This document shows positions 30,966-58,849 of a DNA stretch of 64,000 bases, one piece after another. Position numbers and translations under genes: made by a program. Source of the stretch: Siphonodentalium dalli (taxonomy: Eukaryota > Mollusca > Scaphopoda > Gadilida > Siphonodentaliidae); NCBI GenBank assembly GCA_032622095.1, contig CP136068.1, positions 15,669,729 through 15,733,728 of the forward strand, given 5' to 3'. Every line of letters starts with the position of its first letter. Positions within the stretch are counted from its first letter, which is position 1. The notes under the pieces were generated by a model. The model did no database searches. It saw only the letters and a program-made list of their open reading frames with translations, and had not been told where the DNA came from.

Positions 30966-31078
30966 TGCGTGTGTGTGTGTGTGTGTGTGTGAGGGTGTGT
31001 GTGTGTGTGTGTGTGTGTGTGAGGGTGAGGGAGGGTGTGTGTGTGTGTGCGTGTATGAGGGTGTGTGCGCGTGTGTGA
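30966..31078. repeat. GT-rich microsatellite
   Basis: (GT)n interrupted by GAGGG and GCGT. A matching tract at 52872-52950 is where the second copy of the flanking block begins. Confidence 0.95.
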
Positions 31079-31084
31079 TTCGTC

Positions 31085-31725
31085 AACAATTTCCTTTAGC
31101 ACGGGCTACAGTTCGTACCTTTGGTCCGATTATTATGAAATTTGTCATGGATGTTGACATTGACATGTAGATGGGAACGAATCATTTTGGGATCATTCGG
31201 CCAAAACACATGGCCGCCGGCAGCCATCTTAGATTTTACTCTTTGCATGACCTTTGACACGGGCTACAGGTCGTACCTTTGGATCATCATAAAATTTGTC
31301 ATGGATGTTAACAATGACATATAGATGGGAACGAATCATTTTTGGGTCATTCGGCCGTCAGCAGCCATCTTGGATTTTACTCTTTGTATAACTAAATCCT
31401 TTAGCACGGCTACAGGTCGTACCTTTAGTCTGATCATCATGAAATTTGTCATAGCTTTTGAAAGTGGAACGAAGATCGGAACGAGACATTTTGGGATCAT
31501 TTGGACAAAAAACATGGCCGCCAGCGGCCATCTTTTATTTCAAAATTTAATTAGCACGGGCCACAGGTCGTACTGTTCGTCTGATCATCATGAAATTTGT
31601 CATGGGTGTTAACAATGATATGTAGATGGGAACGAGTCATTTTGGGGTCATTCGGCCGAAAAACATGGCCGCCAGCAGCCATCTTGGATTTTGCTCTTTG
31701 TATGACTAAATCCTTTAGCTTTTTC
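31085..31725. repeat. Satellite of ~160 bp, four copies
   Basis: Same family as 15868-17430 (GGGCTACAGTTCGTACCTTT, ATGAAATTTGTCATGGATGT, ATGGCCGCCAGCAGCCATCT). Short forward ORFs here are satellite translations. Confidence 0.9.
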
Positions 31726-32083
31726 AATATGCTTTATTTCTCTTATCAAATTTCACATGATATTGAGATATGAGTGTATATACAAAAGATATGTACAATA
31801 TTATAGATGGTAGTCTATAGAAATGAATTATATAATTTATATACATTCTGACTCCCTTAAATTGTATTACAGTTGACTCTGTTGTGAGTTGGCCGGATAA
31901 ATGTGGTGCCAATTTATTTATTGACCGGATCATTGATTGTCTATTGTTTAGAGTTATCTTTCATAATTTTAATGTCGCCTGATTTCGTTTAGTACTTTCT
32001 GTCAGGAAATTTGTCAAAGTAAACTTAATTTCATTTAATTACGTATTGCTACAGTGATGTTATCCAAGCTTGATATACGTTCT

Positions 32084-32730
32084 ATGTGCCACCGCAGACG
32101 CTACGATTAAAATCGTAAGTGGGGAAAATCGTAGGTGGAGAAATCGTAGCTTGCCCGCAGACGCTACGGTGCTGCGATGTTTGCAGCTACGATTTTATCA
32201 ACGTGATCGATCACATGATAGCAAAATGTTATACCACATTCTCCGCATTATGCAACTAAATACATATGGCATGTATTTCAACGGTGCACCTACAGCCAAA
32301 TCAAGGCTACTACACCGAACTACATACATATACAGAATGATCTAAACTAACAAGTTGATGTTGAAAGTTCAAGCGAAATTGAATATGTTTTTTTTTTTTT
32401 TTTTTTTTACCTGTCAACTCAACAGGCTCAGATGCCCCAATTGAATTTCAACAATGGCGGCAGCCCTCTACTCCTTGCATGATATGTGGTATAGGCCTGC
32501 ACTCCCTGCACTTTCGTGGTATTTACAACATGACCAGAGCGACAGTGGTCATGTGGCAGCTACGATCGCGTGCGTTGCCAAGGTCACGCCACGATTTTCC
32601 TGGTAAAATCAAACAGTGCTTGATTGCTACGATTTGGCTACGATATTGTCGTGGGCATGCGCATTGGATGCTTCCTCCTGCGATTTTCCCCACTTACGAT
32701 TTTAATCGCAGCGTGTGCGGTGGCACTATG
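32084..32730. mobile_element. ~650-bp MITE with ~45-bp TIRs
   Basis: The left end reads GTGCCACCGCAGACGCTACG then ATTAAAATCGTAAGTGGGGA. The right end read from the minus strand is GTGCCACCGCACACGCTGCG followed by the same ATTAAAATCGTAAGTGGGGA. The interior contains repeated CTACGATT words and a poly-T run. No transposase is present. The second copy is at 53967-54613. Confidence 0.85.
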
Positions 32731-33176
32731 AGTCCCGCTATCAGTTTATGTCTTTTTGTATGCACTAAATTTGGAAAGATTTTTGTGTTTTTTTGTGTTT
32801 TTTTTTTGTTTTGTCGCACGTGTCGACAAAGTGACATTCGAAAATGGGAAACCCGAAAAAACCATCGGCTGGGCATGTGTGTATGTTGTTGCCAGCTATG
32901 AGTGATCACTAGCATATTCGCGATGCAGCTTGTGTTCAACCATATCTACAAAAAAAAGGGAAAAAATATTGATCTGTTATTATTAAAATTATAACTTTTT
33001 CAATAAAAGCTGAGAATACTGGTCCATGCTAATTTCTAGTCTGGATTTTCATCAGAATGTATATAATGAATACAGTCAATATTATACCAATACAGCAATG
33101 GTCCAAGCAAACTACCCCCAACCACAGCAGAACCATGGGCAACCCCCTCAGGACCCAGTCCGAAACACGGTCTGCC

Positions 33177-33221
33177 GCCATTCATCGGAAAGCTCTCAGG
33201 GAGAGCTTTCCGATGAATGGC
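33177..33221. repeat. Perfect 21-bp hairpin with 3-base loop
   Basis: Arms 33177-33197 and 33201-33221 are exact inverted copies around AGG. The copy at 55059-55103 has one mismatch. It lies downstream of the LINE's 3' end, but its relation to the LINE is unknown. Confidence 0.9.
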
Positions 33222-33509
33222 AACAAGCCACATCCCCGACCAAATCCCGAGAAACCACAAACAACTCCGCCTTGGCCAGGGAGTCGACTACTTGGAGCAT
33301 TGCTCTACAATAGTACACTACCGGTATAAGTTATAATTCTGGTCACAATCTAGGTGGAACATTTTAGATACAAAACATATGGTAAATAAAAATACAATTT
33401 ATATTACATTTTAAGTTCAATGTGTCATCAAGATTAACTTATCGAGTTGTCATTTATCAGCAGCTTAATTTAATTCTTGTTTATTCTGTTACTGGATTTA
33501 TCATGTGGG

Positions 33510-34832
33510 TCACAAATTTTCATCTTCAGTCTCTTTTAGGACTAGTCTAATAAATGAACACAACTTTTTCAAAAGTGCAGGGTCTTTCGTGCTTAGAATT
33601 TCGCACATGGTTTCTGTGTTAATTTTATTTGTACTTATAATTGGTAGGAAATGTTTTCTTATATTTCTAAATTTATCGCACTCTAGAAGGTAATGAAATT
33701 CATCTCCAAGTCTACAGCTCTTACATAGTTTGCATTTTCTGTCCCGTAAGTCAGTGTTGTTCCATCTACCAACTTCAATGGGTAGTTTGTGATTACTTGT
33801 TCTGAATTTACTGAGTGTGACTTGGTTTCTACGACCTAAAATATACAGGTAGTCTTCAAAATAGATGTCACTTTTAAATATCCGGTAAATTTTCCCTTTG
33901 CTAGATTGTGTCATACTATTTTCCCAAGAGTGTCTAAATGTACTAATGATACTGCATTTTACATAGTTTATAAATTGTTCTTTGTTTGGAATATGGGTTG
34001 ATTCTATCATATGTGACTGGTTGCAGTTTGCCAATATTTTTCGAATGCTTAGGACCCATTTAAATGGTGTTTGTTCAGTTTCATTAGCCATTTTCTCAGC
34101 TAGTCTGAAATGAATTTTACATATTTTTGTATTTCCAATATTTATCAGTTTTGTCCAGTACTTAATTTGTCGAATATTAATGGTTATGTATATTGGGTGT
34201 CTACCGGTTTCACCATATATCATATAGTCTGGAGATGAAGGTTTTAGGCTTAGCACATGCTTACAGAACTTTTTATGAACATGTTCTAGGATGTCATTGT
34301 TGTCAAAACCCCAGACTTCACACCCATATAATAGAATAGGTAGGACTTGGGAGTCAAACAGTTCAAATTGGTTTTGTAGTGATAACCAGAGGGTTCTTGA
34401 TCGTGATATGACAGCATACATGGCTTTGGTTGCTTTTTCTGCTAGGGATTTTTGGCCTCAGAGAAGTTACCTGACTTTGTGTGAATTATTCCCAGATAAT
34501 TAAATTTCTTAATGGGTTCTAGGTTTTGGCCATTAAAATTAAATTTGGCATATTTTGGGACACTGCGCTTTGATATTAGCATAATCTTTGTCTTGCTTAC
34601 ATTAACTGTTAGTTTCCAGTTGTTACAGTATTTTGCAAACATATCAAGTTGATTTTGTAATTGTTTTGGAGTTTCTGCCATTAAAACAGTGTCATCAGCA
34701 TATAAGATATCAAAGAGTTTCAAATATGTATTCAACTGATTTTCTATCTGTACAGAGACCTTATTTAGTCCAGACGCACCACTATCTATTATGAAGTGTT
34801 CGAGGTCATTGAGATATAGAGAAAATAGCAAC
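33510..34832 (-). pseudogene. LINE A (left block), 3' part of the RT ORF, frameshifted
   Basis: 33510-34421 encodes the C-terminal part after the RT palm, ending in a cysteine-histidine motif (CKLCKSC...GDEFHYLLEC). 34442-34832 encodes palm residues with YADD. The two are one ORF in the right-hand copy (55392-57755); here one T is missing from the T run in GGATTTTTGG near 34447-34452, which shifts the frame. At 34832 LINE A homology ends abruptly at AGCAAC, where unrelated sequence and LINE B begin. Non-LTR retrotransposon with APE-type endonuclease; clade not resolved (Jockey/CR1/L2-like). Confidence 0.85.
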
Positions 34833-36589
34833 AATTCGTTTAATCTTTTTGACCCATAATACATAGGTATTAAGATAACATATAATACATTTTATGTACA
34901 TGACTTACATAATAGAAATACAAATGATATACATTATAATATATGAAAAGTATTTACAATATAAATAATATACCTGTTTGCCATAGGTGCTGTCTGCTGA
35001 CGCTATATACTATGGTGTCATATATGACTGATCCACACAAAGTGCATAGGCATCCTCAATTATATTACCAGCGAGGTAATATAATTAAGAGTATGTATCC
35101 ACTCTGGTTTAGTCGCTTGCACATGTTATTTCGTGTTAGGTTCGTAGGAATACTGTGTCATTTACTATCTTTTCGGTATCTACCCAAGCTTATCTGAATT
35201 TATAAGTTTACGATTGATTATTTTAATAAAGTCGCACAATTTCCGTATGTCTGTTGAATTGTTCTGGTTAAGTATTTCACTCATTGTGACAGTATTTTGT
35301 TTTTTGTTAGTAAATTTTGATAGTAATCGCTGTCTTTCGGGTGATAGTCTCTCGCATTCAAGAAGATAATGAAATTCATCTCCAATCTTTCTGGAGTTAC
35401 AGAGTGGACATAGTCGGTTAGTTTGTTCAAGTTTTCGCCAGCGTCCTGTTTCAATAGGTAAATGGTGATTACTGGTTCTAAATTTACATAATGTAATCCG
35501 GTTTACTACGTTCAACGTTAGATACCTTTCAAAAGATAAGTCATGTTTAAAAATTTGGTATATCTTACCACGACTGGAGTTGTTCATATCAGTTTCCCAA
35601 TTATCCGTGAATTGTGAAATTAAACTACACTTTATATACGAAACGAATTGGGCAGTATCCGGTATGCGTTCCATGTGCCATGCATGTAATTGGTTACAAT
35701 GGTCTAATAAATCATAGATTCGGTGTAACAAAGGGAAATGATTAGCGTTGATATCGAACATAGTCTGTGCTAATTTCAGAAGTATTCTGGGATATCTCAC
35801 CTCCTCACTGTTCATAATTTTGCACCAATATTTTATTATTCTCGTGTTTATATACACGTCAATTGGTAGTCTCCCACATTCCCCATACAGCATAAAGTTG
35901 GGAGTAGATGGCCTCAGGTGAAGAATATGCTTCATAAATTTTCGATGAACTTTTTCAAGAATATCATTGTTACCGAAACCCCAAATCTCGCAACCATATA
36001 ATAAAATTGGCATAACGTGCAAGTCGAACAAATCAAGTTGTGTTTTGATCGAGAGACAGTGCTTTCGCGAATTGCCAATAACTGAGTACATGGCTTTGGT
36101 AGCTTTTTCTGCCAGGGCCTTTTTTGCCGTCGTGAATGATCCAGATTTGCAAAATATTATTCCTAGGTAATTAAATTTGTTTACTGTTTCGATTCTTCTT
36201 CCTTTGAACAGAAATTTTGTCTTTTTTGGAAGACTGGTCTTCGAAAAGTTGACAATTTTCGTTTTCTCGATATTCACTGTTAATTTCCATTTATTGCAAT
36301 ATTTTTCAAAGAGGTCCAGTTGTTGTTGTAATACTTTTGGGGTTTCCCCCATGATTGTCGTATCATCGGCGTACATAATCATGAATATTTTCACATAACA
36401 GTTGAGTCGATTCTCTATTTCTAGGTCTATTGTTTTTAAGCCCACTACGTCGTTATCAAGTAAATATTCTTGCAAATCGTTCAAGTACAGTGTGAATAGT
36501 AAGGGGGATAGGTTGTCACCTTGTCTAACACCAGCATGGCAGGGGAAGTAAATGGATTTACTTCCCTCTGCTTGAACACAGGATTTAAT
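34833..36589 (-). mobile_element. LINE B, 5'-truncated insertion into LINE A
   Basis: 35180-36590 encodes a related but distinct RT: GVRQGDNLSPLLFTLYLNDL, MYADDTTIM, and a C-terminal CPLCNSRKIGDEFHYLLEC. Upstream RT motifs and endonuclease are missing. By chance or by the insertion mechanism it is in frame with LINE A RT sequence upstream, giving one 626-codon ORF (35180-37060) with two YADD motifs. LINE A residues encoded at about 34430-34832 recur at 36590-36962, so the insert is flanked by a target duplication of about 370-400 bp. 34833-35170 is its AT-rich 3' region. Confidence 0.8.
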
Positions 36590-39079
36590 GGTTGCTTTTT
36601 CTGCTAGGAATTTTTTGGCCTCAGAGAAGTTACCTGACTTTGTGTGAATTATTCCCAGATAATTAAATTTCTTAATGGGTTCTAGGTTTTGGCCATTAAA
36701 ATTAAATTTGGCATATTTTGGGACACTTACATTAACTGTTAGTTTCCAGTTGTTACAGTATTTTGCAAACATATCAAGTTGATTTTGTAATTGTTTTGGA
36801 GTTTCTGCCATTAAAACAGTGTCATCAGCATATAAGATAACAAAGAGTTTCAAATATGTATTCAACTGATTTTCTATCTGTACAGAGACCTTATTTAGTC
36901 CAGACGCACCACTATCTATTATGAAGTCTTCGAGGTCATTGAGATATAGAGAAAATAGCAACGGTGACAGATTGTCGCCTTGCCTTACTCCCGTGAGACA
37001 TGGAAATGCTTCTGAAATATCATCGCCTAGGCGGACTGATGACTTTATGTTAAGATACATATTTTTAATAATTCTTAGAATTTTCCCAGTTATTCCGGTA
37101 CGATGTAGTTTGTACCATAGACCGTCTCTCCATACTCTGTCGAAAGCTTTCTCAAAATCAATAAAAGCGCAGTATCAATTGGAATTCAATTTTCTTGTGA
37201 TTTCAGTCAGTATATGAATGGCAAAGATATTATCAATTGTTGCATATCCTTTCCGGAAGCCAGATTGGTTTTCACGTAAAATGTTGTTTCCAGGAATTCG
37301 TATAGTCTAGTCACTAGTATTTTTGTGAAAAGTTTTCCTAGGCAGCTCAAGATTGTTATGGGTCTATAATTTTGAGGGTCTTTTGGGTCACCTTTATTTT
37401 TATAGATGGGGCATATTATTCCAATACCCCATGCTTCTGGGATATTCCCAGTTTCTAAAATCAGGTTAAAATTTGTGCAATATATAGCTATTATCGGTTC
37501 GGATGAGGATGTAATGTATTCATTCAGTAGTTTATCTTCACCTGGAGATTTGTTATTTTTTAGGCCTCTTATTGCAGTTGTTATTTCTTTGATGTTGACA
37601 GGCTTGTTCAGTTCATTTGTATCATAGAGATCAGATGATCCACATATTTCAGGCACTGGTTTGGGGCTATTTTTGTGAATATCTGAGTTGAGATTTCTGA
37701 ATATAGTTGGAATCTGTGTCATTTTATGGCCTTTTAGTTTCGACCAAAATTTCTTTGGGTCAGTATTTCTCATTTGTGCTATTTTATGGGAACATGCATC
37801 TCTGTGTATATTAATGGCTGTGTTGGGTGCTCGCTTATATATCTTGGCTTTCTGACGCATTGTTTTACTGGATATAATGCTGCCAGTGACTTTACACTTC
37901 CTAGCAGCCATTCTATAGTCCTTACGGGCTAATTGACAATCTTTGTTAAACCATGGTTTGCTGTTAGCTAGGTACTTCCTGGCGGGTCTTAAAGGCATAT
38001 TACTATTTGTTGCAAAGGTTTTATGTGCCGAGTCTGATTTCCTCGATGATCATCTGCCCAATGTACAATTTTATGTTCAATTTCGGCTATGGTGGGGAGG
38101 TCAAAGTTCCATTTAAATATTTCTTTTTTACTTGCATCCCACATTCGGGGCTTACAACTACTTTTTTCTTGATTTATGCTTTTGGTATTTTGGGGGGACA
38201 CGTCAAGACTTGTAATGATGGGGCAATGGATATCGGAGAAAAGGTCAGAAAACATTTCGACAGAATTTGTTTTCAATAGTGGCAGAGATGTGTGTGTACA
38301 TAACACGTAGTCGACTGTAGAAGCATCTTTACGTGTTAATGCTCCAATTCCGCTATCGGTTCCTATTCTACCGTTTACTATGAAAAATTCGTTAGCTTTG
38401 CAAAAGCTTAATAATTTATTTCCGAAATTATTTTTTGATTTGTCGGTATTGCACCTTTTTATTAGCAGATTGTTCAGTTCCAGAATAACGGATGTATCTT
38501 CTACATAATATTTTAACCCTGGAATATTATTTTGTTCTGTTTCTTCAGGGGTGATATAGTCGTTATCTGTGGAGGTGCGTGCATTAAAATCGCCTGTTAG
38601 GAAAATTTATTGGTTCGATTTTTTAATTTAATATATTCGCCTGTAATCGTGGTAAATGCCTCTTTAGATGAATAATTACTACTCTCTGGCGGTATATATA
38701 TTGCCCCAATGATGATTTTTTCATCTCTGGAGCCATGTATTATTTTCAGTTCGATCCAGTGGACATAAGGACAGCTTGTATTTATCACATTTGACAGGTT
38801 GGCTAGATTTGACTTAATACCTATTATGATTCCACCAGATTTTATTCGGGAATGTTTTGTTCTGTTTTTCATAAAAAAGGTATAGCCAGATAGTGATATT
38901 TCATCGCAATCATCAGTTTTTATACGCCCGTTTGAAAAAACGGCCGTATTATAGTATTGGTCTGTCCGTCCGTCCGTCCGTCCGGGCGTCCGGACCGACG
39001 TCGATACACTTGTGAGTTGCGATCTTTTGTTTGAGTGACTTGTGGGTTGCACCCCACAAGTAACGTACGGAAAATCCAA
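36590..39079 (-). pseudogene. LINE A (left block), endonuclease and N-terminal RT, broken
   Basis: Pieces on the minus strand: 38597-39079 (N-terminal APE endonuclease, with KSGGIIIGI and GAIYIPPESS), 37989-38306 (C-terminal endonuclease, FSDIHCPIITSLDV), 37207-37998 (RT fingers, GLKNNKSPGED and NYRPITILSCLGKL), and 36590-37060 (palm, GVRQGDNLSPLLF). Frameshifts separate them. This copy has extra damage compared with the right block: a 4-base deletion near 37290, a TGA near 37175, and an 11-codon in-frame loss near 36727. It is not functional. Confidence 0.85.
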
Positions 39080-39099
39080 TTTTAAAGAGCGGTATGTGG

Positions 39100-39447
39100 G
39101 TTTATTAGCCGAAAAGTAAGTTCAAGTTCGAATTTGGGTTCCGCCCGCCAATTTTCACCGGAGTTATGCCCCTTATTTGACATATTTTGACTTAGAAAAT
39201 CCTTGAAATTTGTTGTCCGGATGATAACTTTAGTATAGTTTATCGGAATGAATCCAAATTTGGTATATTACACAGGTCAAGTTCGAACTTGGGTTCTGTC
39301 CGACCATTTTTGGCAGAGTTATGCCCCTTTTTCGACTCAGAAAATTCAGTTTTTCTTATGTTTTTTGGTTTCCGGATGATAACTCGATTTTGGAATGTTT
39401 ATACGCAAAACCCGTTTTTTTGTGGATTACATATATCGAAATACAGC
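39100..39447. repeat. Satellite of ~170 bp, truncated at the Polinton junction
   Basis: Units contain GAGTTATGCCCCTTATTTGA, TTGTCCGGATGATAACTTTA and CAAGTTCGAA. The right block holds more copies (58850-59620). Here the unit is cut after ATACAGCT. Confidence 0.85.
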
Positions 39448-39547
39448 TGCTGCAAGACGGCTGGTTTGGCCGGTAAAGGTACATTATATAAGTACATTGG
39501 AAGTATGGGTACATATTCTACTGCCCTATTGTCTTCCGACATCAAAG

Positions 39548-39655
39548 GAGATCAAAGGAAAGTACCCCGCCCCCGCACAGTATGACGTAACGACGTTGTA
39601 TGTAAACAAAGAAGATCAAGGTACCACCGCCCCCGCACCGTATGACGTAGCGACG
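39548..39655 (+). promoter_or_regulatory. Duplicated GC-rich block with TGACGTA sites
   Basis: AAGTACCCCGCCCCCGCACA with GTATGACGTAACGACG, and GGTACCACCGCCCCCGCACC with GTATGACGTAGCGACG, form two copies about 59 bp apart. A reversed TACGTCAC is at about 39698. These resemble CRE/ATF sites and sit upstream of the + strand gene string, so a promoter or enhancer role is inferred. Confidence 0.45.
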
Positions 39656-39959
39656 CGTGGGTGTTTGAGTATACACGAGTGGGTGTGGGTATTTGTATAC
39701 GTCACGGTTGTGGGGGTCCTTCAGTATATGGATGTGTACTTCGTGAGTGTGGCTATTTGAGAATGGTTGTATACGCTTTCGGGCCTTTGAGAACGGTACA
39801 ATGGGCAATCGTATACTTCCGTCATCGAAGTACGTCGTGTATACTGTTCGTCAGGTACGAAGTATATTTGACAATGATGGTGTACCCCCGCTGGTGTATC
39901 CCTCAGGTGTGCTTATCAAGAATTAATAAGGATGATCCAAGTACCTCTGTGTTATAACC

Positions 39960-40196
39960 ATGGACAGTGATCATACTTCGGAAAAGTGGCAGTTAATGGG
40001 TCACAAAGTCCCCAGATCCGAAATAGTTTATTTCTGTCAAATTATCATTCTGTACTCCATCATAATCACGTCTATCGTCAATTTATCTATAGGACACGAG
40101 GCATCGACATTATGGACTAGTCTCCTTTCGTCATCGGCGGGGTATCTATTGCCAGCTCCTTATATACGTAAAAGCGTCACGTCTGCGGCGGTATAA
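39960..40196 (+). CDS. Small membrane protein with two hydrophobic helices
   Basis: This 78-aa protein has hydrophobic segments at about residues 22-44 (IVYFCQIIILYSIIITSIV) and 50-66 (LWTSLLSSSAGYLLPAP). The pattern KxPRxEIVxFxQ...LW..LLSS..GYLLP.P recalls small proteins I associate with invertebrate Polinton-like elements, though that is from memory. It opens the + strand gene string, 35 bp before the TBP-like gene. A holin-like or virion-membrane role is possible but not shown. It is probably real, because the reading frame is open and its composition is that of a membrane protein. Confidence 0.65.
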   Translation: MDSDHTSEKWQLMGHKVPRSEIVYFCQIIILYSIIITSIVNLSIGHEASTLWTSLLSSSAGYLLPAPYIRKSVTSAAV

Positions 40197-40231
40197 AGAA
40201 AGAATGTGATACAGCTTCGTGTCATTTATCA

Positions 40232-40747
40232 ATGATGGTACGTATAACGAACATCGTGTGTTCCAGCCACTTAGGTTATGCTATCGACATAGTTGGCTTA
40301 GCGAAGTCATTGTGTAATGTGATATATCAGAGAGGATTCATAATGTGGAAGCACCGTTCCATAGGTGGTTGCTGTTGGATTTATAACACGGGAAAAATAA
40401 TGTGTATGGGTGCAGCATCGCACGTCCAGGACGGTAGGAATAGACTGAGAAAGTACGCTAGAATCATTAAAAAAATGGGCCATCATGTTCGATTGTCACA
40501 AGTACGAATAGTGACAATGTCTGGAGTACACAAGTGCGGTAAATTATCAGCAGAGACCATCGTGCGATACATGGACGGTAAATACCATCCGGAAATCTTT
40601 CCGGCAGTCACCTTCTACGAACGAGGTATCCACTTCGCTTGCCACATGAGCGGCACAGTGCTAATAACGGGCATTAAGAAACCGTGTCAGCTTAATAACA
40701 TCGTGCATCCTAAAATATTGGAGTTGGAGTGCTGTAGCCATGGATGA
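40232..40747 (+). CDS. TATA-binding-protein-like protein
   Basis: The 171-aa protein spans both direct repeats of the TBP saddle. Repeat 1: ITNIVCSSHLGYAIDI, YNTGKIMCMGA, RKYARIIKKMG (residues about 5-83). Repeat 2: VHKCGKLS, YHPEIFPAVTF, MSGTVLITG (about 92-147). These align with the eukaryotic TBP words QNIVSTVNLG, FSSGKMVCTGAKS, ARKYARVVQKLG, YEPELFPG and SGKVVLTGAK. Of the four DNA-intercalating phenylalanines of TBP, the aligned positions are F36, Y51, F123 and H138. There is no N-terminal extension. ATG is at 40232 or 40235; the 3' end overlaps the integrase start by 8 bases. Likely role: directing Pol II to the element's own promoters, or competing with host TBP (inference). The ORF has no stops despite decay elsewhere. 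Confidence 0.85.
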   Translation: MMVRITNIVCSSHLGYAIDIVGLAKSLCNVIYQRGFIMWKHRSIGGCCWIYNTGKIMCMGAASHVQDGRNRLRKYARIIKKMGHHVRLSQVRIVTMSGVHKCGKLSAETIVRYMDGKYHPEIFPAVTFYERGIHFACHMSGTVLITGIKKPCQLNNIVHPKILELECCSHG

Positions 40748-41813
40748 ATATCTGCAATCGTTATATTATGATCCGGGCAAGCCGGGGAGTTTCGGAGGAG
40801 TCGAAAAGCTGTACGAGGCTGTCAAAGCGGAGGGAACACGCTCTATAAGCCGCAAACAAATTCGTGAATGGTTAAGCTCGCAAGAAACTTACTCGCTAGT
40901 TAGACCAGCCCGGCGTAAATTCCCCAGGAGCAGAGTGATCGTCGAGGGAATCGATTCAATGTGGGATGCCGATTTGGCAGATATGACGGCTTCTGGTAGT
41001 CGTTACAAATATATTTTGGTTATTATCGACGTATTTTCAAGATTCGCTTGGTGTCGCTCGTTGTTACAGAAAGATGCCAAACACGTCGGTGAGGCATTCT
41101 CAGACGTGTTCGGGGCACAAAGCCGTAAACCGAAAATTCTACGAACTGATAAGGGGACAGATTTTAACTCTAGACCCGTGCAAAGAATACTTAAAGAACG
41201 AGGAATCAAATACTTATCAACGGAGAACGAAACTAAAGCGAACTACGCAGAGAGACTTATAAAGACTTTGAAAACCAAGCTATACAGATACCTAGTTCAC
41301 AACAACGTACTCGATTATTCCGAGGTTTTGCAGGCTGTGGTAAATAGCTACAATAATACTGTGCACAGGTCCACCGGTTTCACACCCGTATCGGTTAGCA
41401 AGGACAACGAATCGGAAGTGCGTTATGAACAGAAAAGACTTCTAGGGCATAAACAACCAAAGTTGAAAAAGTATAAGTTCAAAGTCGGCGACAGGGTGCG
41501 AATATGCCACGTTAAAGACGTGTATGACAGAGAATTCTACAAGAAGTGGACTGGTGAAATTTTCACTATAGTTCGGCGATACAGAAGGGGTGGTGTCAAC
41601 GTTTACAAGTTGTCTGATTGGAACGAAGAAGATGTGACAGGCTCATTTTATGAACAAGAATTACAGTTAGCGACGGTCAACTCTGACACTTTATACAGAA
41701 TAGAGAACGTTCTAAGGAAAAACAGAGGGAAGGTACTCGTTAGGTGGCTTAATTGGGGGCCAAAATACGATTCTTGGATACCCGAAATTGACCTAGTTAA
41801 ACACGGACAATGA
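40740..41813 (+). CDS. Polinton-type integrase with chromo-like C-terminus
   Basis: The 357-aa protein matches the Polinton integrase family throughout. An N-terminal SLYYDPGKPGSFGGVEKLY and IREWLSSQETY region (about 8-51) precedes the RNase H-fold DDE core: D78 in WDADLADM, D137 in RTDKGTDFNS, E171 in NYAERLIKTLK. A basic SH3-like segment follows (about 246-310), then a chromo-like tail (YRIENVLRKNRGKVLVRW, WGPKYDSWIPEIDLVK, about 319-354). Full length, and all three catalytic acids are present. It inserts element ends into host DNA; the chromo-like tail may steer target choice. It overlaps the TBP-like gene by 8 bases and the next ORF by ATGA. Confidence 0.95.
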   Translation: MDEYLQSLYYDPGKPGSFGGVEKLYEAVKAEGTRSISRKQIREWLSSQETYSLVRPARRKFPRSRVIVEGIDSMWDADLADMTASGSRYKYILVIIDVFSRFAWCRSLLQKDAKHVGEAFSDVFGAQSRKPKILRTDKGTDFNSRPVQRILKERGIKYLSTENETKANYAERLIKTLKTKLYRYLVHNNVLDYSEVLQAVVNSYNNTVHRSTGFTPVSVSKDNESEVRYEQKRLLGHKQPKLKKYKFKVGDRVRICHVKDVYDREFYKKWTGEIFTIVRRYRRGGVNVYKLSDWNEEDVTGSFYEQELQLATVNSDTLYRIENVLRKNRGKVLVRWLNWGPKYDSWIPEIDLVKHGQ

Positions 41814-42199
41814 GGCTATATATTTCCAGTGATAAATATCAAGTATATTTTCCAGACAATGAGGCCGGTGATTTTACTTTACCTCTACCATCGAACTTGC
41901 ATTTGAATAGCGAATGGACCGTCACCTTGGAACAAATATCTATGAAACCAAAACCACATAACAGAATAATTTACATATGCTGCGATATTTGTCAAGATTC
42001 TAGACTGCCAACACACTCATTGCAGGTCCTAAGGGCTATATACGAGGATGTCACGGGAGATTTCACCGGAGGTATCTCAATCCCTGTCGCAGGAGGACCT
42101 TCAAACTTTATAAGGATCTATCTGCTGGATGAGAATTTGAGAAGAATAGAAATTGATTCATTGGATTGTTGCTTGTTACTCAGCGATGGTCGGGACTAG
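41810..42199 (+). CDS. Putative minor capsid / penton-like protein
   Basis: The 129-aa protein begins MRLYISSDKYQVYFPDNEAG and continues FTLPLPSNLHLNSEWTVTLE. The pattern S...YFPDN....F...LP..L.L...W.V.L..I is what I recall from the N-terminal region of Polinton/adintovirus minor capsid (penton-type) proteins. It is short for that family, so it may be only part of one. It starts in the ATGA overlap with the integrase and sits directly upstream of the capsid gene, which fits a virion role. The function is inferred. Confidence 0.55.
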   Translation: MRLYISSDKYQVYFPDNEAGDFTLPLPSNLHLNSEWTVTLEQISMKPKPHNRIIYICCDICQDSRLPTHSLQVLRAIYEDVTGDFTGGISIPVAGGPSNFIRIYLLDENLRRIEIDSLDCCLLLSDGRD

Positions 42200-42377
42200 A
42201 TATTATTACGATACGGTGCACAGTGTATCTGCCGATGGTGCCCAGAAAAAATGGTGTGACAAAAGTGAAACCTAATCTTCGGAAAGTAAGGTCACTAAGA
42301 AGAAAATAAAACCTCAAAAAGGTGGAAAAAAGAACAAATCTCTAAAGCGCGAAAAAAAAAATCAGGGCGGTTCATGA
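42186..42377 (+). pseudogene. Small lysine-rich protein, interrupted by TAA
   Basis: An ATG at 42186, inside the end of the preceding ORF, opens a frame beginning MVGTRYYYDTVHSV that meets TAA at 42273. The same frame then runs on as a strongly basic stretch (VTKKKIKPQKGGKKNKSLKR) to TGA at 42375. Small basic proteins in this position could be core or DNA-condensing proteins, as in adenovirus-like viruses (inference). A nonsense mutation in a former 63-codon gene is the simplest reading; an unrelated spacer is the alternative. Confidence 0.4.
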
Positions 42378-42428
42378 AGAAGTCAAAAGTTATAAGGGGA
42401 AACAGACCCCCGGATGTTTTTGATAAAA

Positions 42429-43590
42429 ATGGAAAAGCTACCGATATTCGGAGAAGTTGAAGAAGACAGGCACGCGCATAAAGAATGGATGGAGTTCAAC
42501 CCCACAACAGCCATTACAGAAAACTCGCCCATAGAATTTTATATACCAGGGACATCTAATGATTATGTCGATTTAAGAAGCAGTACTCTCAGTGTCAAAA
42601 TCAAAATAGTTAATGATGACGGAACGGCATTGGCTTCAGCATCGAAAGTCGGTCCCATTAATATGCCTCTTTCGTCCATATTTAGTTCCGTCAATATGGA
42701 ATTACAGCAAACACCCGTTGGATCCCTAGGTCCTTATTATCCGTATAAGGCATATCTCGACACGTTACTGGAGTCAACAGAGACGCAACTACGCTATACC
42801 TTTTCCGAACGGCTATTTGAAAAGGACAGAGCAGAACATATGGATTCTGTCAATGTCAGGACCGATCAGCCATGACTTGTGTCAACAGGGACGCTACATG
42901 TTGAATGGAGTTCCAGTCAAAATAACATTATGGCCTGGTAAAAATGACTTTTGTTTAATGAGTGCTGACACTACTCCCAAATACAAAATGAAGATAACCG
43001 AAGCTAAATTTAAAGCGTGCTTTGTCAAAATAGAAAATGGGACTGATGTGGAAAGAAAACTCACTACAAAAGACGCTATCTACCCGTACAGAAAGTCGGT
43101 CATTAAAGCTTTCTCTGTTTCCAAGGGGGCATTCAACTTCACAGCGACTAACGTGTTCCAGAATGATGTTCCACAAAGGGTTCTTATAGTAATTACAGAG
43201 GCTGAGGCGTTGAATGGCAGCTACACCAAGAATCCGTTCAATTTTAAACATTATAATTGCAGTCATCTGGCATTTAAGGTGGATGGTCAATCTGTACCTA
43301 GTCGCCCCCTAAATATGAACTTTAAAAAGGACGACTATATGGAAGCATACCACAACTTGACAAGTGCCTTCCCCCACTTATCTATCAATAGAGAATCTTA
43401 TAAAGAAGGTTTCACCATATTCTGCATCGAGCCTTACGGAGAAAATGTTGCGTCTGTCAATAAAGGATTAGTGCAAATAGACATGAGGTTCAGTGAAGCT
43501 CTGCCAGAAACTGCAGTCATCTTAGTTTACGGAACTTTTCCAGCACATTTGACGGTTGACAAAGACAGAAATGTATTTCTTCCTATGTAA
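42429..43590 (+). pseudogene. F54H12.2-type capsid protein, frameshifted
   Basis: The first part (42429-42875) includes NSPIEFYIPGTSNDYVDL, STLSVKIKIVNDDGTAL and YYPYKAYLDTLL. The second (frame +1, ending 43590) includes QGRYMLNGVPVKITLWPGK and NPFNFKHYNCSHLAFKVDGQ. Together they match the capsid-like protein annotated as F54H12.2 in nematodes and common in invertebrate Polintons. The frames change between about 42845 and 42870. Family members usually have more residues between these parts, so a small deletion with frameshift is likely. No intact protein can be made. AATAAA lies 47 bases after the stop. Confidence 0.85.
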
Positions 43591-43636
43591 CAGTTGTGAA
43601 ATGTTTTTTCATTGTTTTGTGCATGTTTCTTTTGTA

Positions 43637-43642
43637 AATAAA
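43637..43642 (+). terminator. Poly(A) signal AATAAA for the + strand gene string
   Basis: AATAAA in TTGTAAATAAACTATTG, 47 bp after the capsid stop codon, followed by TTGTAAATATTGTAAAC. Confidence 0.6.
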
Positions 43643-43814
43643 CTATTGTAAATATTGTAAACAATCTTTGAGTTATTTCAAATCACCAACTGAGCACTAT
43701 CAACACCCTCCAACGTGTCATTCATTTCTAGATGGCGTAACTCGAACGTAAATGGCGTTTGAAATGTGTAATGGGGGATTCAAACCAAAATAACAACGTT
43801 TTATCATACAGATA

Positions 43815-43820
43815 TTTATT
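43815..43820 (-). terminator. Poly(A) signal for the - strand gene string
   Basis: TTTATT on the plus strand is AATAAA on the minus strand, about 160 bp beyond the last minus-strand gene. 43591-43978 is otherwise the convergent non-coding gap between the two gene strings. Confidence 0.45.
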
Positions 43821-43978
43821 AACTCAGATGGATACATATATCAAACAATGGACAATGAAATAGACAACGCAAATTTTGACATAAATGATAAAAACACTAT
43901 CACACATTGATTATGGTGCTGTATAGATAACCATACATATACATTTAAAAAACATTGACAGAGAACACATTTCATTAG

Positions 43979-44164
43979 TCATTTGGGAAGTTGCAGCCAT
44001 TTGGACTTTATGAGTCCTCTTCTTATTCCAGGCAGAGAAGGTGGCCTATTCACAGTTTCTTCCTGAGGCGGTTCACTTTCGACTTTCGAATCCTCTCCAC
44101 ATTTTTTCACCAAATTTTGATATTTCTCTAATGGTATCAGAATATTTTTGCCGAAAGTGGCCAT
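43979..44164 (-). CDS. Small protein, last gene of the minus string
   Basis: A 61-aa protein: MATFGKNILIPLEKYQNLVK, an acidic middle, then PPSLPGIRRG. The words (V/I)LIPLEKYQ.L and PP..PGIR recall short proteins next to Polinton capsid or ATPase genes, from memory only. Its ATG shares one base with the stop of the upstream gene (TAATG), which suggests coupled expression. The function is unknown. Confidence 0.55.
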   Translation of the reverse strand: MATFGKNILIPLEKYQNLVKKCGEDSKVESEPPQEETVNRPPSLPGIRRGLIKSKWLQLPK

Positions 44165-44472
44165 TATAGTTCTCGCAATGGAAGATTTTTCAACAATGCA
44201 GTCACTGCCTCCGGTCTTCTTTGCAACAGTTGCTTCTTTCTACGAACACCTATTTCTGAACTAGATAATTCTCTATACACGTCTTTGTAGGGTTCCAAAC
44301 TTTCAATATTTGAAACTGGTAACACATCAAACAGAAAGTTTAAACAAATTTCGGCGATGCTTCTAACTTGATCATAAGTCACGGAACGTAATATAGCTGA
44401 CACTTGGTTTTTAGTCTTACTGGAAGACAATATAAACATAAAATCAATGTTTCGTTTGACGAGTTCGCTCAT
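44164..44472 (-). CDS. Small conserved Polinton protein of unknown function
   Basis: A 102-aa protein: a helical N-terminal half (SVTYDQVRSIAEICLNFLFD), LEPYKDVYREL, then the basic VRRKKQLLQRR and an LLKNLPL tail. I recall similar short basic proteins (E.ALN.L.G.....Y......RKKLL...GGFL) in metazoan Polinton-like elements. It begins 2 bases after the ATPase stop and overlaps the next gene by one base. A core or DNA-associated virion protein is a guess from the basic segment. Confidence 0.6.
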   Translation of the reverse strand: MSELVKRNIDFMFILSSSKTKNQVSAILRSVTYDQVRSIAEICLNFLFDVLPVSNIESLEPYKDVYRELSSSEIGVRRKKQLLQRRPEAVTALLKNLPLREL

Positions 44473-44474
44473 CC

Positions 44475-45125
44475 TTATAATTTTGTGTATATGATGGGAT
44501 ATTCTCCGGGAAAAATGTCAGTTCTCACACGGAGTTCTTGTTCCGTATTAGGAGTTGTGTCAACAACTAAATAACCGTACCGTCTGTCCAAAACTGCATC
44601 CTTATAACTATCACTCAGAAAATGAGATTTTCCTGGAAAGAGTTGCTGTCCCAAATATTTGACCTGATTGGCATCTCGAACGTTCTTCAAAAGAATGAGA
44701 TATGAACTGTTCAAAGCTATAGATCTAGCGTGACGTCCTTTCTGAAATTGGTTTTGGGTTAAAAATAAAGTTGTTAGGCGACGATGGTGACAGCCTTGCG
44801 TAAACAAACATTCCATTTCTGAACTGTCTAGCACCTTATGGGCTAGATCATCCAGAATAATCATAGAGGGTGTCCCGTCTGCAAACACATCTAAGGTTTC
44901 TACCGTAGGTAGCCCTTTGTGAAAAGTTATATTCGGAATAACTCGCTCCATTTCGTGGAACAGCCGTTGATCGACACCGTAGCAATACAAAATTTTCTGA
45001 GGGTATTCTCCCGAAATCATTTGTTGTAAATTTTGCAAGAATCGAAATGTCCATCGCGTTTTTCCAGATTTGGTGGCACCGGACACCATGTAACTAGAAT
45101 CCGGTTCAAAAGGTATTAGTGACAT
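44475..45125 (-). CDS. FtsK/HerA-type genome-packaging ATPase
   Basis: The 216-aa protein has a P-loop GATKSGKT (residues 16-23), Walker B SMIILDD with D92/D93, and TQNQF (123-127) at the sensor position, the pattern of the packaging ATPases of Polintons and related DNA viruses. It would pump element DNA into a capsid. Near full length, no stops, Met1 just before SLIPFEPDSSYMVSG. It is followed at 2 bases by the small basic protein. A single exon, unlike the neighbouring polymerase gene. Confidence 0.9.
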   Translation of the reverse strand: MSLIPFEPDSSYMVSGATKSGKTRWTFRFLQNLQQMISGEYPQKILYCYGVDQRLFHEMERVIPNITFHKGLPTVETLDVFADGTPSMIILDDLAHKVLDSSEMECLFTQGCHHRRLTTLFLTQNQFQKGRHARSIALNSSYLILLKNVRDANQVKYLGQQLFPGKSHFLSDSYKDAVLDRRYGYLVVDTTPNTEQELRVRTDIFPGEYPIIYTKL

Positions 45126-48115
45126 GACTGATGTGAATTTGAGAATTTTACATCCTTATAACTATCACTGAAATTTGTTCCGGAGGTACACAATCTTAAA
45201 AACCGAAGGGTAATGTGTCAAGGTTTTCTTGTAAAACACGTTTCGTATACACGATGCTGTACTCCTTGTCCTGTTTCTGATTATAAAGTAAGGGCCTGCG
45301 GCGACTTCTATTGATTTTATTTTCAGTGATGTACACTTTGCAGTGGTCGTTTAGATCATTCTCAGCCTTCCTTTTTCTGTTAATCAAAGTGTCCATCACC
45401 GAAAAGTTTATCTTCGTCGCGTTCACGTGGTTCAGAGTAAACCCTCTGACCTTACACACTTCCTTGTTGTCAGTGGTCTGATACGCATAGTTTTTAGGAC
45501 CACCACTCCGGAATTTTGTTATGGAATGTCCATCGAGCTCGTCCGTCAGATCACCGAGGTAGTCACCAGTCTGAACGGTAGGGCCTCCCGGTCTTTCCAC
45601 GTAGATGACAGAATCTGCAATGTAAGCATATAATATAAGCTTCTATAGCCACAATGTATTTAGCGTTAACCTTCGTCCCCCATGATGTATTTAATTGATT
45701 ACTCACCAGTGTCAAAGTAAAGAACGTTTTCTCCTAGGTGTTCCAGAACGTCGTACAATTTGAGACGAGCCCAAGCAGTCGTTAGACTCGCTATAAATAC
45801 GTTCGTCTTGTCATCAGAGGGAATGAAGTGTCGGTCGTATACGTATGACAGCTGAATGTGGGTGTCGTTGATGATGTGAAAGTCTTTCACGTGTTTTGTG
45901 GAGTCCGAAATCAAGCTGAAAAACTTTTCTGGCTCACTGTCGTGTATGATATCACTTTGAGACATGTTCAACCTCTCTCCGAATTTTCCCCTGAAATATG
46001 AAACATAAAATATAATATCACATCATTTTTTTTAAATTTTATTTTTCTCGTTTTTTTTATATACAAAAACTTACTTACCAAAGGACATTTAGCATCATTT
46101 TTGAAGTGGCTCTTAGTGCGGGTGCTTTCCTTATGCTGGCAGGATCCAGCTGTATACCCTCCACACTAGCGTAGTCCGCTATGTAACGCTCCTTGTCACT
46201 TTCGGTTTCGACCCAAGCTGGCCAACCACTCGCTTCCTGTTTCAACTTTAAGAACCTGTAATGAGAAATAATGAGTAATATTGCGATAATGTATGAACCC
46301 CCCCACTCACCCGAACCGAATAAAACCCTGGTACAAAAAAAAGGGAGGGAGGGGGGCGCGCACGCTTTTTGGTTTAAATTTAAAAAAAACAATACTAACC
46401 TATTGACGTATCCGGAGAAGAGACCTCCGCTTTTGCTTTCTTTGTCGTATTGGGTGGATTCTTCCCAGTTATATACTTCATAGATTTTCATCACAGCGTA
46501 TCCTTTGTCGAGAGCTTTAACTATTTCGCAAGTGGTCCAACAGCCAGTGAGTGAGCGATCCGTGTCATCGTGTTTACAAACAGTCTGTAACCTTTCATCC
46601 ACACAACTCCGACACAAAGGGAACGTGAGCTTGCCACCTGAACGGTACGGTAATACACCGTGGTACAGTCCACGAGGAGGCAACACTTTCACCAACGCTA
46701 GCCCGAAATATTCACGAATATCACTGAAGTCACTGGTGATGATTTGAGGATGTTTGGAAACCATCTTGGCTGTCTTATTGATAAATGGATATAATGATGT
46801 AAAGTCAACATATTTCACCTTCTCCCCCGGCTGTACATCATACGCCAATTTGCAGGCATTAGTTCTACCTGAAAATAATTTTATTTGAATTATTTTTTGA
46901 ATTTTTTTGAATTATTTAAAAAAATATATATTTTGGAGACAAATTATACTCACAACTTATATATTTCCTACTTGAAAACATCTTTTTAATTGTTTTTGAA
47001 TTATTTTGAATTATTAATGTTTTTTTTTTAATAATTTTGAATTATTTTTATTTTGAAAAATGTGAAAATTTATACTCACCACCGAAAAATGAGTCACGTG
47101 GCTTCAGACGCGGTTGTACGTCCAGGCTCTCCACATAATCCTTCACATCAATGTCATCTTTCAATAGCTTGTCAAACGTGTGTTCCCAGATGCATACGTA
47201 CTTGAACCCTGCTTCTTTCAAGAAATTTCGCTTCTTTATAGTTAAAGCGTGCAATTCACTCAGGGACTGTTTAGTGAGTGGATGTTTCGTGGTGTCACGG
47301 TTCAGAGGATGGCACGTATGGCACGCGTGATAAAAGCAACCTAAAAATAGAAAGGAGTGAATATGTATTCGTGTAAAACCATAAATGTTGTGTGACAACA
47401 AAAATAAATGAAATAAATATACATACCGTGGAATTCAAAGCAAGTGTTGGTGTTGAGACAGAATCCATCCACTTTGTATCGACTGTTTGGTATCTTGTAC
47501 TCTCCATTGTGCAGAGCGTGATCTATTTCCAAGCCTTTTTTGTGTGACAGCCAGCACAGCCATTGAATTGATTTGTGGGAATACTGGTCAGATTCACGAT
47601 CTGAATCCACTTTAGCTATGGGTGTGCTGACAAACTTCCCTTCAGATATCTTCATCCCACGAGCATTCAGGAAAGCTTTAGTAACCCACGCACCGTCATA
47701 CAGTATGCTGCACACACCATTTACTTTCTTCATGGGTACATCTTTCAACAACGTAGCGTCATTCTTTTCGATGGATATTTTATATGTTTCCTCCAAGAAC
47801 AACGTTTTATAGGCGTTCATACATGCCGAGCTTATGGTAACAGACTTGAAAGGATCGACTGCACCTTCAGTCACATCCATGAATAGTGCTCGAAATTTTA
47901 AACAAGCCTGTCTGAGAATGTCCACATCGGAGATGCAATAAGCACGAATTTCTTTTCTAAAATTGAAAATTTCTTCAGATTTTCCAGCGTGCCATTGCAG
48001 GAATTTTTCTCTCTCCGAAGGTGACATCGTATCTGGTCCATAATACACGGCATCGGGGGGTAGTGTCCCACATAATCTTGGTTGGCTGCGGTGTTGAAAA
48101 AGTGGCAAAAATACC

Positions 48116-48354
48116 CTGCAAAATAAATTAGACATATACATACGGAGTAAATATGAAAAATATCTTACAACAAAACTCACCTTTATGTAACTTACGCAAA
48201 TCAAAGGCTTTCGAGAGTGCGGTCAGTAGCATAGACAATAAGTTGAAGCTGCACAGCACTCAGAATTCCGAAATGGGGTTTTAAATACATTATTTTGGAC
48301 CTTGAATTTATTTCCCCCCAATAAATATGAAACATATCTTACACCAAAACTCAC
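48116..48354 (-). other. PolB intron 2 containing a decayed duplicate of the preceding exon end
   Basis: 48150-48309 repeats about 48323-48486, that is the last ~130 bp of exon 2, its GTGAGT donor and about 30 bp of intron, with roughly 15% difference. Both donors survive. Only use of the donor at 48354 keeps the reading frame into KGYF. Confidence 0.75.
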
Positions 48355-50472
48355 CTTTATGCAACTCACGCAAATCAAAGGCTTTCGGGAGTGCAGCCAG
48401 TCGCATCGACAAGAAGTTGAAGCTGTCCATCACCCGAATTCCGAAATGGGTTTTTAAATACATTATTTTGGATCCTGAATACAGGATCCTCGTTGGTCGT
48501 ACACCTTGGAACACCAAATATTCTAGCAGCAGGATGGAATCGTACGCCTTGCCATTATGGCTCATGACTGTGTAATACTTGTGAGCGTCCGTAAACAACC
48601 AAAGTCCAAATGTGTTCAATGTATGTGTTCCACTGGCTATAAACTGGCGACGTCCACATCCGTCACAAGGTGCATTCTTGAACGAACCTTGCTTGTTCCT
48701 GGCATCACAAGCGTTACAACGACTTCCACAATTAGCACATTGCGAATCGGCATCCACAGGTTCCTTGGAACAGGACTCACAGGCCGAATGTGCGACAACC
48801 AGATTAGGTGTGTGCCTATTTAACCCGCACTGGGGAAGCTTGCATTCTATACATCTGCAATGAAAATTGAAGTGATACATAAATGCCTAATAACGTTAAT
48901 GTCACTTAATACATTATAATGCGCCTGAAGAATCATCAGTGATAAACACAACGCCATTCCATAGTTGTTTCCTAAAATTAAAAAAAAAAAAAAACCTTAC
49001 CTGCGACATTTTGAACATCTTTCATCTTCTGAACAAGTATCCCGGCACGGTGGACCCCTTTTGTAGCCTGTGTCACATTGGAAAAGTTCATTCTGCGTGC
49101 ACTCGAAATCAAAGAATATAAATTTGTGGTCACTGGGTGTCGGTCGTACACAGGGTCTCAAATAACACAGATGTTGTCCCGTCACCAATTCGCCGCACGA
49201 AGAACACATCCATTCACTGCAAATATGTGGATGTTTTTCCATATTTCGTTTGATGATGTTTATAACTTTTTTGCAGGTGATACATTTGTGGTAAGTATCA
49301 CATTGTGAATTGCCATTTTGAGGAGTCATTCGATGTCTGTTGAAACACTCAAGACCACGGCATGTAATGTGGCATTGTTTGCATGACAGTTCATCAGCCA
49401 CTTTGCAACCTGCGGTCTTACAATTTATGCAATAGTCATCGCAAGAATGATCCTCTGTTATTGTAAGGCTTTAGACAGGTTTCACAAAAATAACTTTGAC
49501 GAAAGAATCCGCAGATAGATACAATAGGGGTGAAATGAGTTTGTTCTTGATAATACACGTAAATATTCCTTTCATACTTGTTGCTGCTTCTCACTATTTT
49601 ATTTCCAACTTCCGCACTAATTAGTACCAGATTAATATTGAAATACTCTTCAAAAAGTGGAATGTCACTCAAGACACCGGGTCTATCTGTTGGTATATTC
49701 AGTTCCCCCAAAACGCGGTAGGTGGTGGTTCGTTGAGTACTTCTTTCTGAATATGTCAGCTCCTTGTAGTTGCGACGTGTGATTTTGTGATGTTCTAAAA
49801 AAATGTCAGCTGCACTTTGATGAGGATATTGAAGTTTTAAATCCTCATCTACTATAAATAACTTAGCTGCGGCTATCACTATGGATCACGCCAAACAGGT
49901 GTTGTCCTTGTTCTTTATATAGACCATAGATTTTTTCTTTAGAACATCATTATCACATAGTATGGGTCGCGTGCCACCCCCTGAGCCTCTCGGTTTACGT
50001 ATAGATCCTACTGTAACGTTAAATGTTCTATCCAACGATAAACTTTCTTGAGAACTCAGGACGTTGGCTACACGATCCATAACCATCGTGGGAGTGAGAT
50101 GTTTCCACTCTGTTAGTTCCACCACGATGGGTCTGTTCAGTTGAACTGTTTGTATAACAACCCGGCCGAGATCTTCATCATCCCTATCGCCTCTGGCTTT
50201 ATGCAGCACATCTGCGAACATTCGTTCCAACTCCTCCCGTAAGTCTGAAAGTCTCTCAGTATACCACCGCTCATTAAAGGTCACATCGTAAATATTCTCT
50301 ACGGCAGTTGTTTTCATAAATGTTTTTGTTTCACGTAGAGTTATATTATATGGCACAGTTGTTGGTAATGGTTCCGTGACATCACTGGTGGGGGTCAGAT
50401 TTTGTATAGATGATGTTTGACCCGGTGTTGGAACGGGTGTGGTGGATGAATGTGTGTTTGGAGGAGCTGACA

Positions 50473-50869
50473 TCGTTAAGTCCAGAGGCTGACTTTGTGG
50501 ACTCGTTGGCTGAATCGGCACGTGTGATAAGTCCATGGGACTGGTTTGAGGACGTTCCGATGACTGCGTCGTAGGTCGTTGACGGGATGTATTCGATAAG
50601 TCCATCGGACTGTTTCGTGGTCGTTCCGAAGTCCTCGTCGTAGGTCGTTGACGGGATGTCCTCGATGTGTCTAGAGGCTCGTTATGAGGTCGAACCGGTC
50701 GCTGCCTTTGAGGTGCGCTGGTGACGGGCTGCCTGCTGGACTCCAACCGCACTAATGCGTCGTACAAAGATCTGTTGAAGGGGGTTAATGGCTGTCCCGA
50801 TATTTCCCTTAGCAAATCATCGCTGGTATAACCACCGTTGAACATTTGTTGAGCTAGATAATTCTCCAT
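50473..50869 (-). other. N-terminal Pro/Ser/Thr-rich region of PolB ORF with PxDLS motifs
   Basis: This is the first ~132 codons of the polymerase ORF. A 23-residue unit (TSRQRPTT...SERP..SPMDLS) is present twice, at about 50662-50594 and 50593-50525. It places PMDLS at 50608-50594 and 50539-50525; PLDLT lies at 50488-50474 and the weaker PLDTS at 50677-50663. PxDLS is the docking motif for the CtBP corepressor, known from adenovirus E1A and many host repressors. The context is disordered, as such motifs require. Function is inferred; the sequence just before MENYLAQQ is a strong acceptor-like tract (TATTATTTTTTCAG), hinting at a 5'UTR intron. Confidence 0.6.
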
Positions 50870-50879
50870 TCTGAAAAAA

Positions 50880-51013
50880 TAATAATATAGTTGAGTCATA
50901 TGAAATAATCACGTGATTGACACTCGTAACCAATCAGATGAAAACTTTGGGGGTATAAAGAGCTTCTACTTTCATTTTTTCCCCCCCGCAGCATTCAGCG
51001 TCATCGATACATC
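50880..51013. promoter_or_regulatory. Bidirectional promoter between PolB and IAP genes
   Basis: About 130 bp separates the divergent genes. It holds CACGTG (50910-50915), CCAAT (50930-50934) and TATAAAG (50954-50960), the latter 54 bp before the IAP ATG. TATA and CCAAT are oriented for the + strand gene; no clear TATA faces PolB. Confidence 0.6.
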
Positions 51014-51640: not shown

Positions 51641-51770
51641 CTGTAAGGAAGGACTATCGGAGCTGCTCGTAAACTTACCTCGGGTGGTGTAATTCCGACT
51701 GTTTTTTTTTAAATCCGCAAACTGTAAGGAAAAAAAGACCGATAGTGATACGTTCACACGCTGCACATAG

Positions 51771-58836: not shown

Positions 58837-58849
58837 TTTTAAAGAGCGG

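Follow-up and report, generated by a model that had tools for sequence, protein, structure and literature searches.

The window, a 64,000-nucleotide stretch of the Siphonodentalium dalli genome, contains an intron-less open reading frame of 171 aa on the forward strand (40232..40747, from the ATG at 40232 to the stop at 40747), which a sequence-only reading had taken for a TATA-binding protein (TBP) gene inside a Polinton. The locus raises the question of whether this ORF is a TBP gene of the element and not of the host and, if so, what a Polinton would do with it.

The TBP ORF and the element that carries it

In a Pfam scan the ORF matched PF00352 with 62.3 bits (cut-off 22.9) in two stretches corresponding to both TBP repeats, and in a PDB sequence search its residues 4–154 matched TBP chains with E = 1.9e-11. 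The predicted structure was a two-repeat saddle that VIA-align superimposed on 1cdw and 7egb at 1.5–1.6 Å over 169 residues; the structure alignment gave 25% identity with cellular TBP across aligned residues, and the fold fitted the TBPs of Pol II and of Pol III complexes equally. The ORF coordinates, the two-stretch PF00352 match and the PDB match confirmed the position, the length of 171 aa and the two TBP halves claimed earlier, and both checks that had been proposed, a Pfam TBP match and a saddle fold, gave positive results. A chance ORF was ruled out by the Pfam match, the fold and conservation. 

The start of the rve integrase ORF (40740..41813, + strand; Pfam rve 1.6e-12, with a weak C-terminal Chromo match of 0.0013 below the cut-off) shares 8 nt with the end of the TBP frame, in line with the overlap reported earlier. 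A host TBP exon was located elsewhere (C6:155354090-155354272, 95.6 bits); it is a canonical metazoan TBP, 76% identical to nematode TBP over 63 residues, and is followed by non-coding sequence and then by the next TBP-like stretch in another frame. With the host TBP represented by a separate canonical exon, the claim that the ORF is an element gene held, and a host gene or host pseudogene was ruled out by that exon, the non-coding sequence after it and its location. A host TLF/TRF2 exon was not recognised among the matches listed, which were filled by element copies.

Polintons are characterised by an rve-type integrase, a protein-primed type-B DNA polymerase, genes for a capsid, an ATPase and an adenovirus-type protease, terminal inverted repeats and a 6-bp target-site duplication. 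The Polinton/Maverick element spans 39449..52872 (about 13.4 kb). Its left edge was placed at 39449 because the alignment with the copies L003, L005, L006 and L007 stops at 39448; the alignments with L002, L004 and L008 end slightly further inside. The right edge is put tentatively at 52872, where the flanking duplicate begins in the window copy. The retroelement-rich left flank (30999..39448), outside the element, is repeated at 52872–59205 with 98–99% identity by self-BLAST, and long direct duplicates thus border the element on both sides. A comparison of the left 920 nt with the remainder of the window revealed no long terminal inverted repeat. Reverse-transcriptase-like retroelement frames were seen by eye at 33510–38306 in the left flank, and positions 1–12470 form a tandem array of units of about 2.24 kb that are about 99% identical and contain further repeats.

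Downstream of the integrase, on the same strand, are a conserved ORF (41810..42199; matched in L001–L020, in L008 partly; no Pfam match above cut-off) and a putative major-capsid-like gene (42414..43590), so labelled from its position and length, which is split in the window into two overlapping frames (42414–42875 and 42817–43590) and is a single ORF of 407–423 aa in L022, L029 and L032; the capsid-like ORF gave no Pfam match and no significant PDB sequence match. The minus strand carries a small ORF (44164..44472; conserved in families, no Pfam match above cut-off) beside a putative packaging-ATPase-like ORF (44475..45125), which has a weak AAA_14 match (0.032) and is likewise conserved in families, and a type-B DNA polymerase (46075..48880) that is broken across several frames in the window copy and matched DNA_pol_B_2 in three pieces (1.2e-07, 2.5e-07 and 1.6e-05, the last below the cut-off). 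An inhibitor-of-apoptosis protein (IAP) gene with BIR and RING domains (51014..51640, + strand; Pfam BIR 2e-17, zf-C3HC4_3 9.1e-13) precedes a tandem PC4 gene, described below.

Copies, selection and relatives

The genome (2.2 Gb, 9 contigs) was searched with the window TBP, and the best 150 of 431 first-look candidates were scored; all 150 had E ≤ 0.001, and 141 of them, some being fragments, had no stop inside the match. By identity to the window the copies fell into groups of about 94–100, 58–65, 53–55, 45, 40 and 46%. The same ORF stood beside the integrase in related elements, as the sequence-only reading had proposed to look for: TBP was followed by integrase within 200 nt at 39 of the 40 loci L001–L040 (L001 is the window, L033 the exception), and 90 of 114 integrase matches were immediately preceded by a same-strand TBP. 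The other 24, truncated copies included, had no directly adjacent TBP among the best 150 TBP matches. In L008 an open TBP frame lies beside an integrase that matched in pieces only.

The 46% group, represented by L043, was the most numerous by frame length among the Pfam matches listed, and is arranged in another way. Its TBP directly follows PC4, at 11–12 nt, and its capsid-like and protease-like genes are on the other strand; the protease label is a putative one from position and conservation, the adenovirus protease match (20.4 bits) being just below the cut-off of 21.3. The L043-type integrase is also on the other strand: among the matches listed, two of six integrase matches of 46–47% identity were 3.7–4.3 kb from a TBP of this group, and a third (C4:7417557) had an L043-group TBP within 5 kb among the Pfam matches listed.

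Nei–Gojobori counts gave TBP omega values of 0.15–0.33 for pairs inside the window family, 0.27 for L029–L033 and about 0.21 for L032–L040 at a dS of 1.2. Four close pairs with few changes (L009–L021, L012–L021, L032–L036 and L032–L034) gave 0.64–1.27, and most between-family dS values were saturated, so that omega was not computable for those pairs. Integrase omega was 0.12–0.68 for pairs inside the window family. The element TBP is under purifying selection in most measurable pairs.

Rearranged copies were also observed. At L050 (G000:C3:293382300-293385800) two TBP–integrase–capsid halves face each other as a palindrome, whose fetched arms of 1606 bp are 100% identical and are separated at the centre by about 250 nt, and the matches listed include no fewer than ten cases of two TBPs on opposite strands no more than 12 kb apart. 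Such facing pairs may be terminal-palindrome derivatives comparable to snap-back defective genomes. L044 (G000:C2:85770600-85777400) is a tandem array with units of about 2.77 kb that holds three copies of TBP, two whole copies of PC4 and one cut copy.

As a single-sequence protein query, the window TBP (P0001) found no relatives; an alignment of eight genome families retrieved 119 proteins at E ≤ 0.001, mostly unnamed proteins on short contigs. In one of them, the gene model P0058 of the clam Tegillarca granosa, the TBP continues into an integrase of Polinton type; this is an independent animal record of the TBP–integrase gene order. For the tree, 15 of the 119 relatives were removed for a length below 150 aa, and 112 sequences in 171 columns were used, namely 74 element-type TBPs, of which this genome contributed 8, and 38 others; the 'cellular' group (P0066, P0078–P0120) was assigned from names and score, many rows being unnamed proteins. 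The element-type TBPs formed one clade apart from the 38 others (UFBoot 94, branch 0.75), and within it the seven integrase-linked families of this genome formed a clade with a support of 100. Of the placement in a TBP, TLF and viral tree that had been proposed, the separation from other TBPs was thus obtained, in a tree from which mirusvirus and nimavirus TBPs and TLF sequences were absent. One scan of prokaryote genomes found no relative, and prokaryotic contamination was discounted on that result. Viral contigs yielded no match to TBP, integrase or cellular TBP queries, and four distant matches to a tandem-PC4 query.

DNA-reading residues, promoter boxes and the tandem PC4 gene

Canonical TBP has four intercalating phenylalanines and minor-groove Asn/Val pairs in both repeats. 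We compared these residues in the alignment of the 112 TBPs, in which the window clade has seven members, with the intercalating columns and residue roles assigned from what we take to be their equivalents in the known yeast and human TBP structures. All seven window-clade sequences lack three residues of the N-terminal stirrup, and the first intercalating Phe falls in this gap (another F is near it in five of the seven, the window included); outside this clade one other element row had a gap there. The second position was Y and the third F, each in 6/7 sequences of the clade, and the fourth was H in five and Y in two. The window ORF therefore reads deleted, Y, F and H: of the F, Y, F and H given earlier, the last three stood and the first F was lost with the stirrup deletion. 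The L043 family retains all four phenylalanines.

In the second repeat, the minor-groove Asn was replaced by Thr in 72 of 74 element TBPs (Asn in 38/38 other TBPs), and the Val two residues further on by Ser in 71 of 74 (Val in 36/38 others); the window ORF has N and V in its first repeat and T and S in its second, and so is a homologue of TBP and not a canonical one. The first-repeat Thr before Gly, present in 32 of the 38 other TBPs, was replaced by Met in 5/7 window-clade sequences, and by Asn or Gln in 62 of the remaining 67 element TBPs. The basic helix was retained, and the glutamate of the PE-L/I motif, presumably the TFIIB contact, was present in 70 of 74 element TBPs and in all seven of the window clade. 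This residue pattern would fit a changed, not lost, DNA preference. The altered DNA preference suggested before is supported by these residue changes, and the preference itself is a prediction from sequence. Since the window clade has two changed and one deleted intercalating Phe, binding and bending could be weakened.

A TATAAAGA box (40192..40199, + strand) lies 40 nt upstream of the TBP start, and TATAAA was found 35–44 nt upstream of the conserved TBP ATG in 8/8 integrase-linked loci (one per family, and L031); it is absent in L043. A TATAAGGA box (45153..45160, − strand) lies 35 nt upstream of the ATPase-like ORF, and in two families, that of the window and the 45% one, TATAAGGA recurred 33–36 nt upstream of this ORF. 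At that distance it also precedes IAP in the families of 45% and 40% identity. Upstream of the window IAP, at −60 (50954..50961, + strand), stands TATAAAGA, not TATAAGGA. In L039, TATAAGAA precedes one of two IAP copies, and no TATAAGGA was found in the 45 nt upstream of the ATPase; the IAP of L049 has TATAAGGC at −66. TATAAGG was not found in 5.5 kb of the L043 family. A first-order model predicts 1.5 TATAAGG for the window element, which has eight, and some of these fall inside coding frames (42744, 52422). The whole window contains 18 TATAAGGA against 3 expected, an enrichment inflated because 12 copies are at 404–18745, 11 of them in a tandem array. TATAAGG was present in 9/9 chosen promoters, among which the IAP row had been picked for its match. 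Its occurrence before the capsid-like gene was downgraded as promoter evidence, because there it lies within or near an upstream coding frame, a small one reading V-I-R-K in several families, and may reflect protein constraint. The boxes hint that the element may have two promoter classes.

The earlier TBP finding had omitted a second gene carried by the element, a tandem PC4/SUB1 coactivator gene (52339..52842, + strand) encoding 167 aa with a C-terminal Cys/His tail. Its ORF matched Pfam PC4 with 1.9e-16 (59.7 bits, cut-off 25) in two PF02229 stretches and the PDB PC4 structure 1pcf with E = 0.001, and the same type of protein was found in the L043 family (4.5e-15) and in L049 (5.4e-14). Genome PC4 matches were taken as the best 150 of 725 candidates. 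Where integrase and TBP adjoin, no fewer than 38 of 71 loci had PC4 5–20 kb downstream on the same strand, or, by a wider count, at least 39 of 72 integrase loci, one of the 72 lacking an adjacent TBP among the matches listed; the distance was 9.3–10.4 kb in 29 of these 39 and 11.6–11.9 kb in six. PC4 also ends 337 nt before TBP in L029, and similarly in L030. A PC4 profile search gave 206 relatives, several of the best 120 being from oysters and mussels.

Some further observations concern the PC4 gene. The oyster proteins P0172, P0173, P0174, P0186 and others have CARD and PC4 domains in one chain. At least 40 opposite-strand PC4 pairs were seen, most of them about 8.8–9.3 or 5.0 kb apart, and in L049 PC4 occurs together with IAP; these pairs and L049 suggest right-end palindromes. 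At 51841..52164 (+ strand), upstream of the PC4 gene, a repeat search detected five spaced copies of a motif like GAATCATTTCCGG, which in our view resemble joined AP-1 and ETS sites.

Possible roles of the element TBP and known systems

The reading that we favour, with a probability of roughly 0.6, is that the ORF is a working Polinton gene and that TBP and tandem PC4 form the element's own transcription-initiation module, acting with host TFIIB and Pol II. It draws on the fold, the integrase linkage, the spread over families, the purifying selection, the PC4 partner and the residue changes. Host factors would transcribe the element TBP gene from its ordinary TATAAA box; the element TBP, with DNA-reading residues unlike those of cellular TBP, would bind and bend element promoters and, with the main TFIIB-contact glutamate and the basic helix retained, would recruit host TFIIB and RNA polymerase II with the assistance of PC4, and the element genes would be read independently of TFIID and host control. 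We infer which promoters the element TBP targets, that host Pol II is its partner, and in what order the steps occur. A narrower and more tentative proposal, which we consider rather doubtful as it stands, is an early/late switch in a lineage of animal Polintons, in which host TBP would read the TATAAA of the element TBP gene, and element TBP with PC4 would then read TATAAGG. In this proposal the element TBP would have a changed reader of the second half-site, and TATAAGG would serve the packaging and IAP genes and perhaps that of the capsid.

Other roles were weighed against the initiation module. TFIIIB directs Ty3 integration, and the element TBP, perhaps made from the integrase transcript, might likewise anchor the integration complex at promoters with a TATA box or at those of polymerase III. 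The overlap of the two reading frames and their joint presence in most matches speak for this, but in the L043 family TBP adjoins PC4 and not the integrase, and we regard targeting as unlikely. About equally unlikely, or slightly more so, is a decoy, which would not drive the element's genes but would compete with host TBP for TFIIA, TFIIB or TAFs and thereby lower host or antiviral transcription. Conservation of the basic helix and the TFIIB glutamate beside a changed N-terminal stirrup and changed DNA-reading residues would suit such a protein; however, the Thr and Ser changes on the DNA face are common to the clade, which looks like a retained alternative specificity, and PC4 points to positive transcription. 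Service to Pol III, or to an as yet unseen polymerase of the element, is improbable: the fold suits Pol II and Pol III complexes alike, but the window ORFs that were scanned include no recognisable RNA polymerase gene, and protein-coding genes with PC4 fit Pol II. Least probable is that a recently captured copy of host TBP is carried by chance. Polintons carry host-derived genes such as IAP, and IAP is present in the window element, but the element TBPs are one clade apart from the 38 others, and TBP occurs in at least seven diverged families with purifying selection in most measurable pairs.

The presence of TBP and tandem PC4 across diverged families would mean that animals and these elements compete over promoter recognition itself. 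If the early/late switch were true, these would be, as far as we know, the smallest DNA elements to encode two parts of the eukaryotic initiation complex. The element TBPs offer a natural set with altered DNA-reading residues for studying how TBP specificity evolves, and together with PC4 a way to study the activation of endogenous Polintons. To our knowledge, own general transcription factors are known in large DNA viruses and not in 13-kb transposon-like Polintons, and we know of no described Polinton with TBP or tandem PC4; none with TBP or PC4 was found among the matches listed in the open-access literature, subscription papers and preprints being outside its scope.

Among known systems, the virus-encoded TBPs are those of large viruses, compared here from two published descriptions. 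Mirusviruses have TBP in 59% of genomes, against 0% of Nucleocytoviricota in that comparison (PMC10132985), and for nimaviruses (white spot syndrome virus and endogenous relatives) a TBP gene is listed, as an 891-aa protein, and placed in a tree (PMC4506587). The element TBP shares with cellular animal TBP (PF00352; 1cdw, 7egb) the two-repeat saddle, the basic helix and the TFIIB-contact glutamate, and differs from it by the lack of an N-terminal tail, by Thr and Ser in place of the second-repeat Asn and Val in nearly all copies and, in the window clade, by the stirrup deletion and two changed phenylalanine positions. The element PC4 resembles PC4/SUB1 in its two PF02229 stretches and its PDB match, whereas it has two domains in tandem and a conserved Cys/His tail. 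With Maverick/Polinton elements and adintoviruses the window element has in common the rve integrase, type-B polymerase pieces, and capsid-like, ATPase-like and IAP genes, and to these it adds TBP and tandem PC4.
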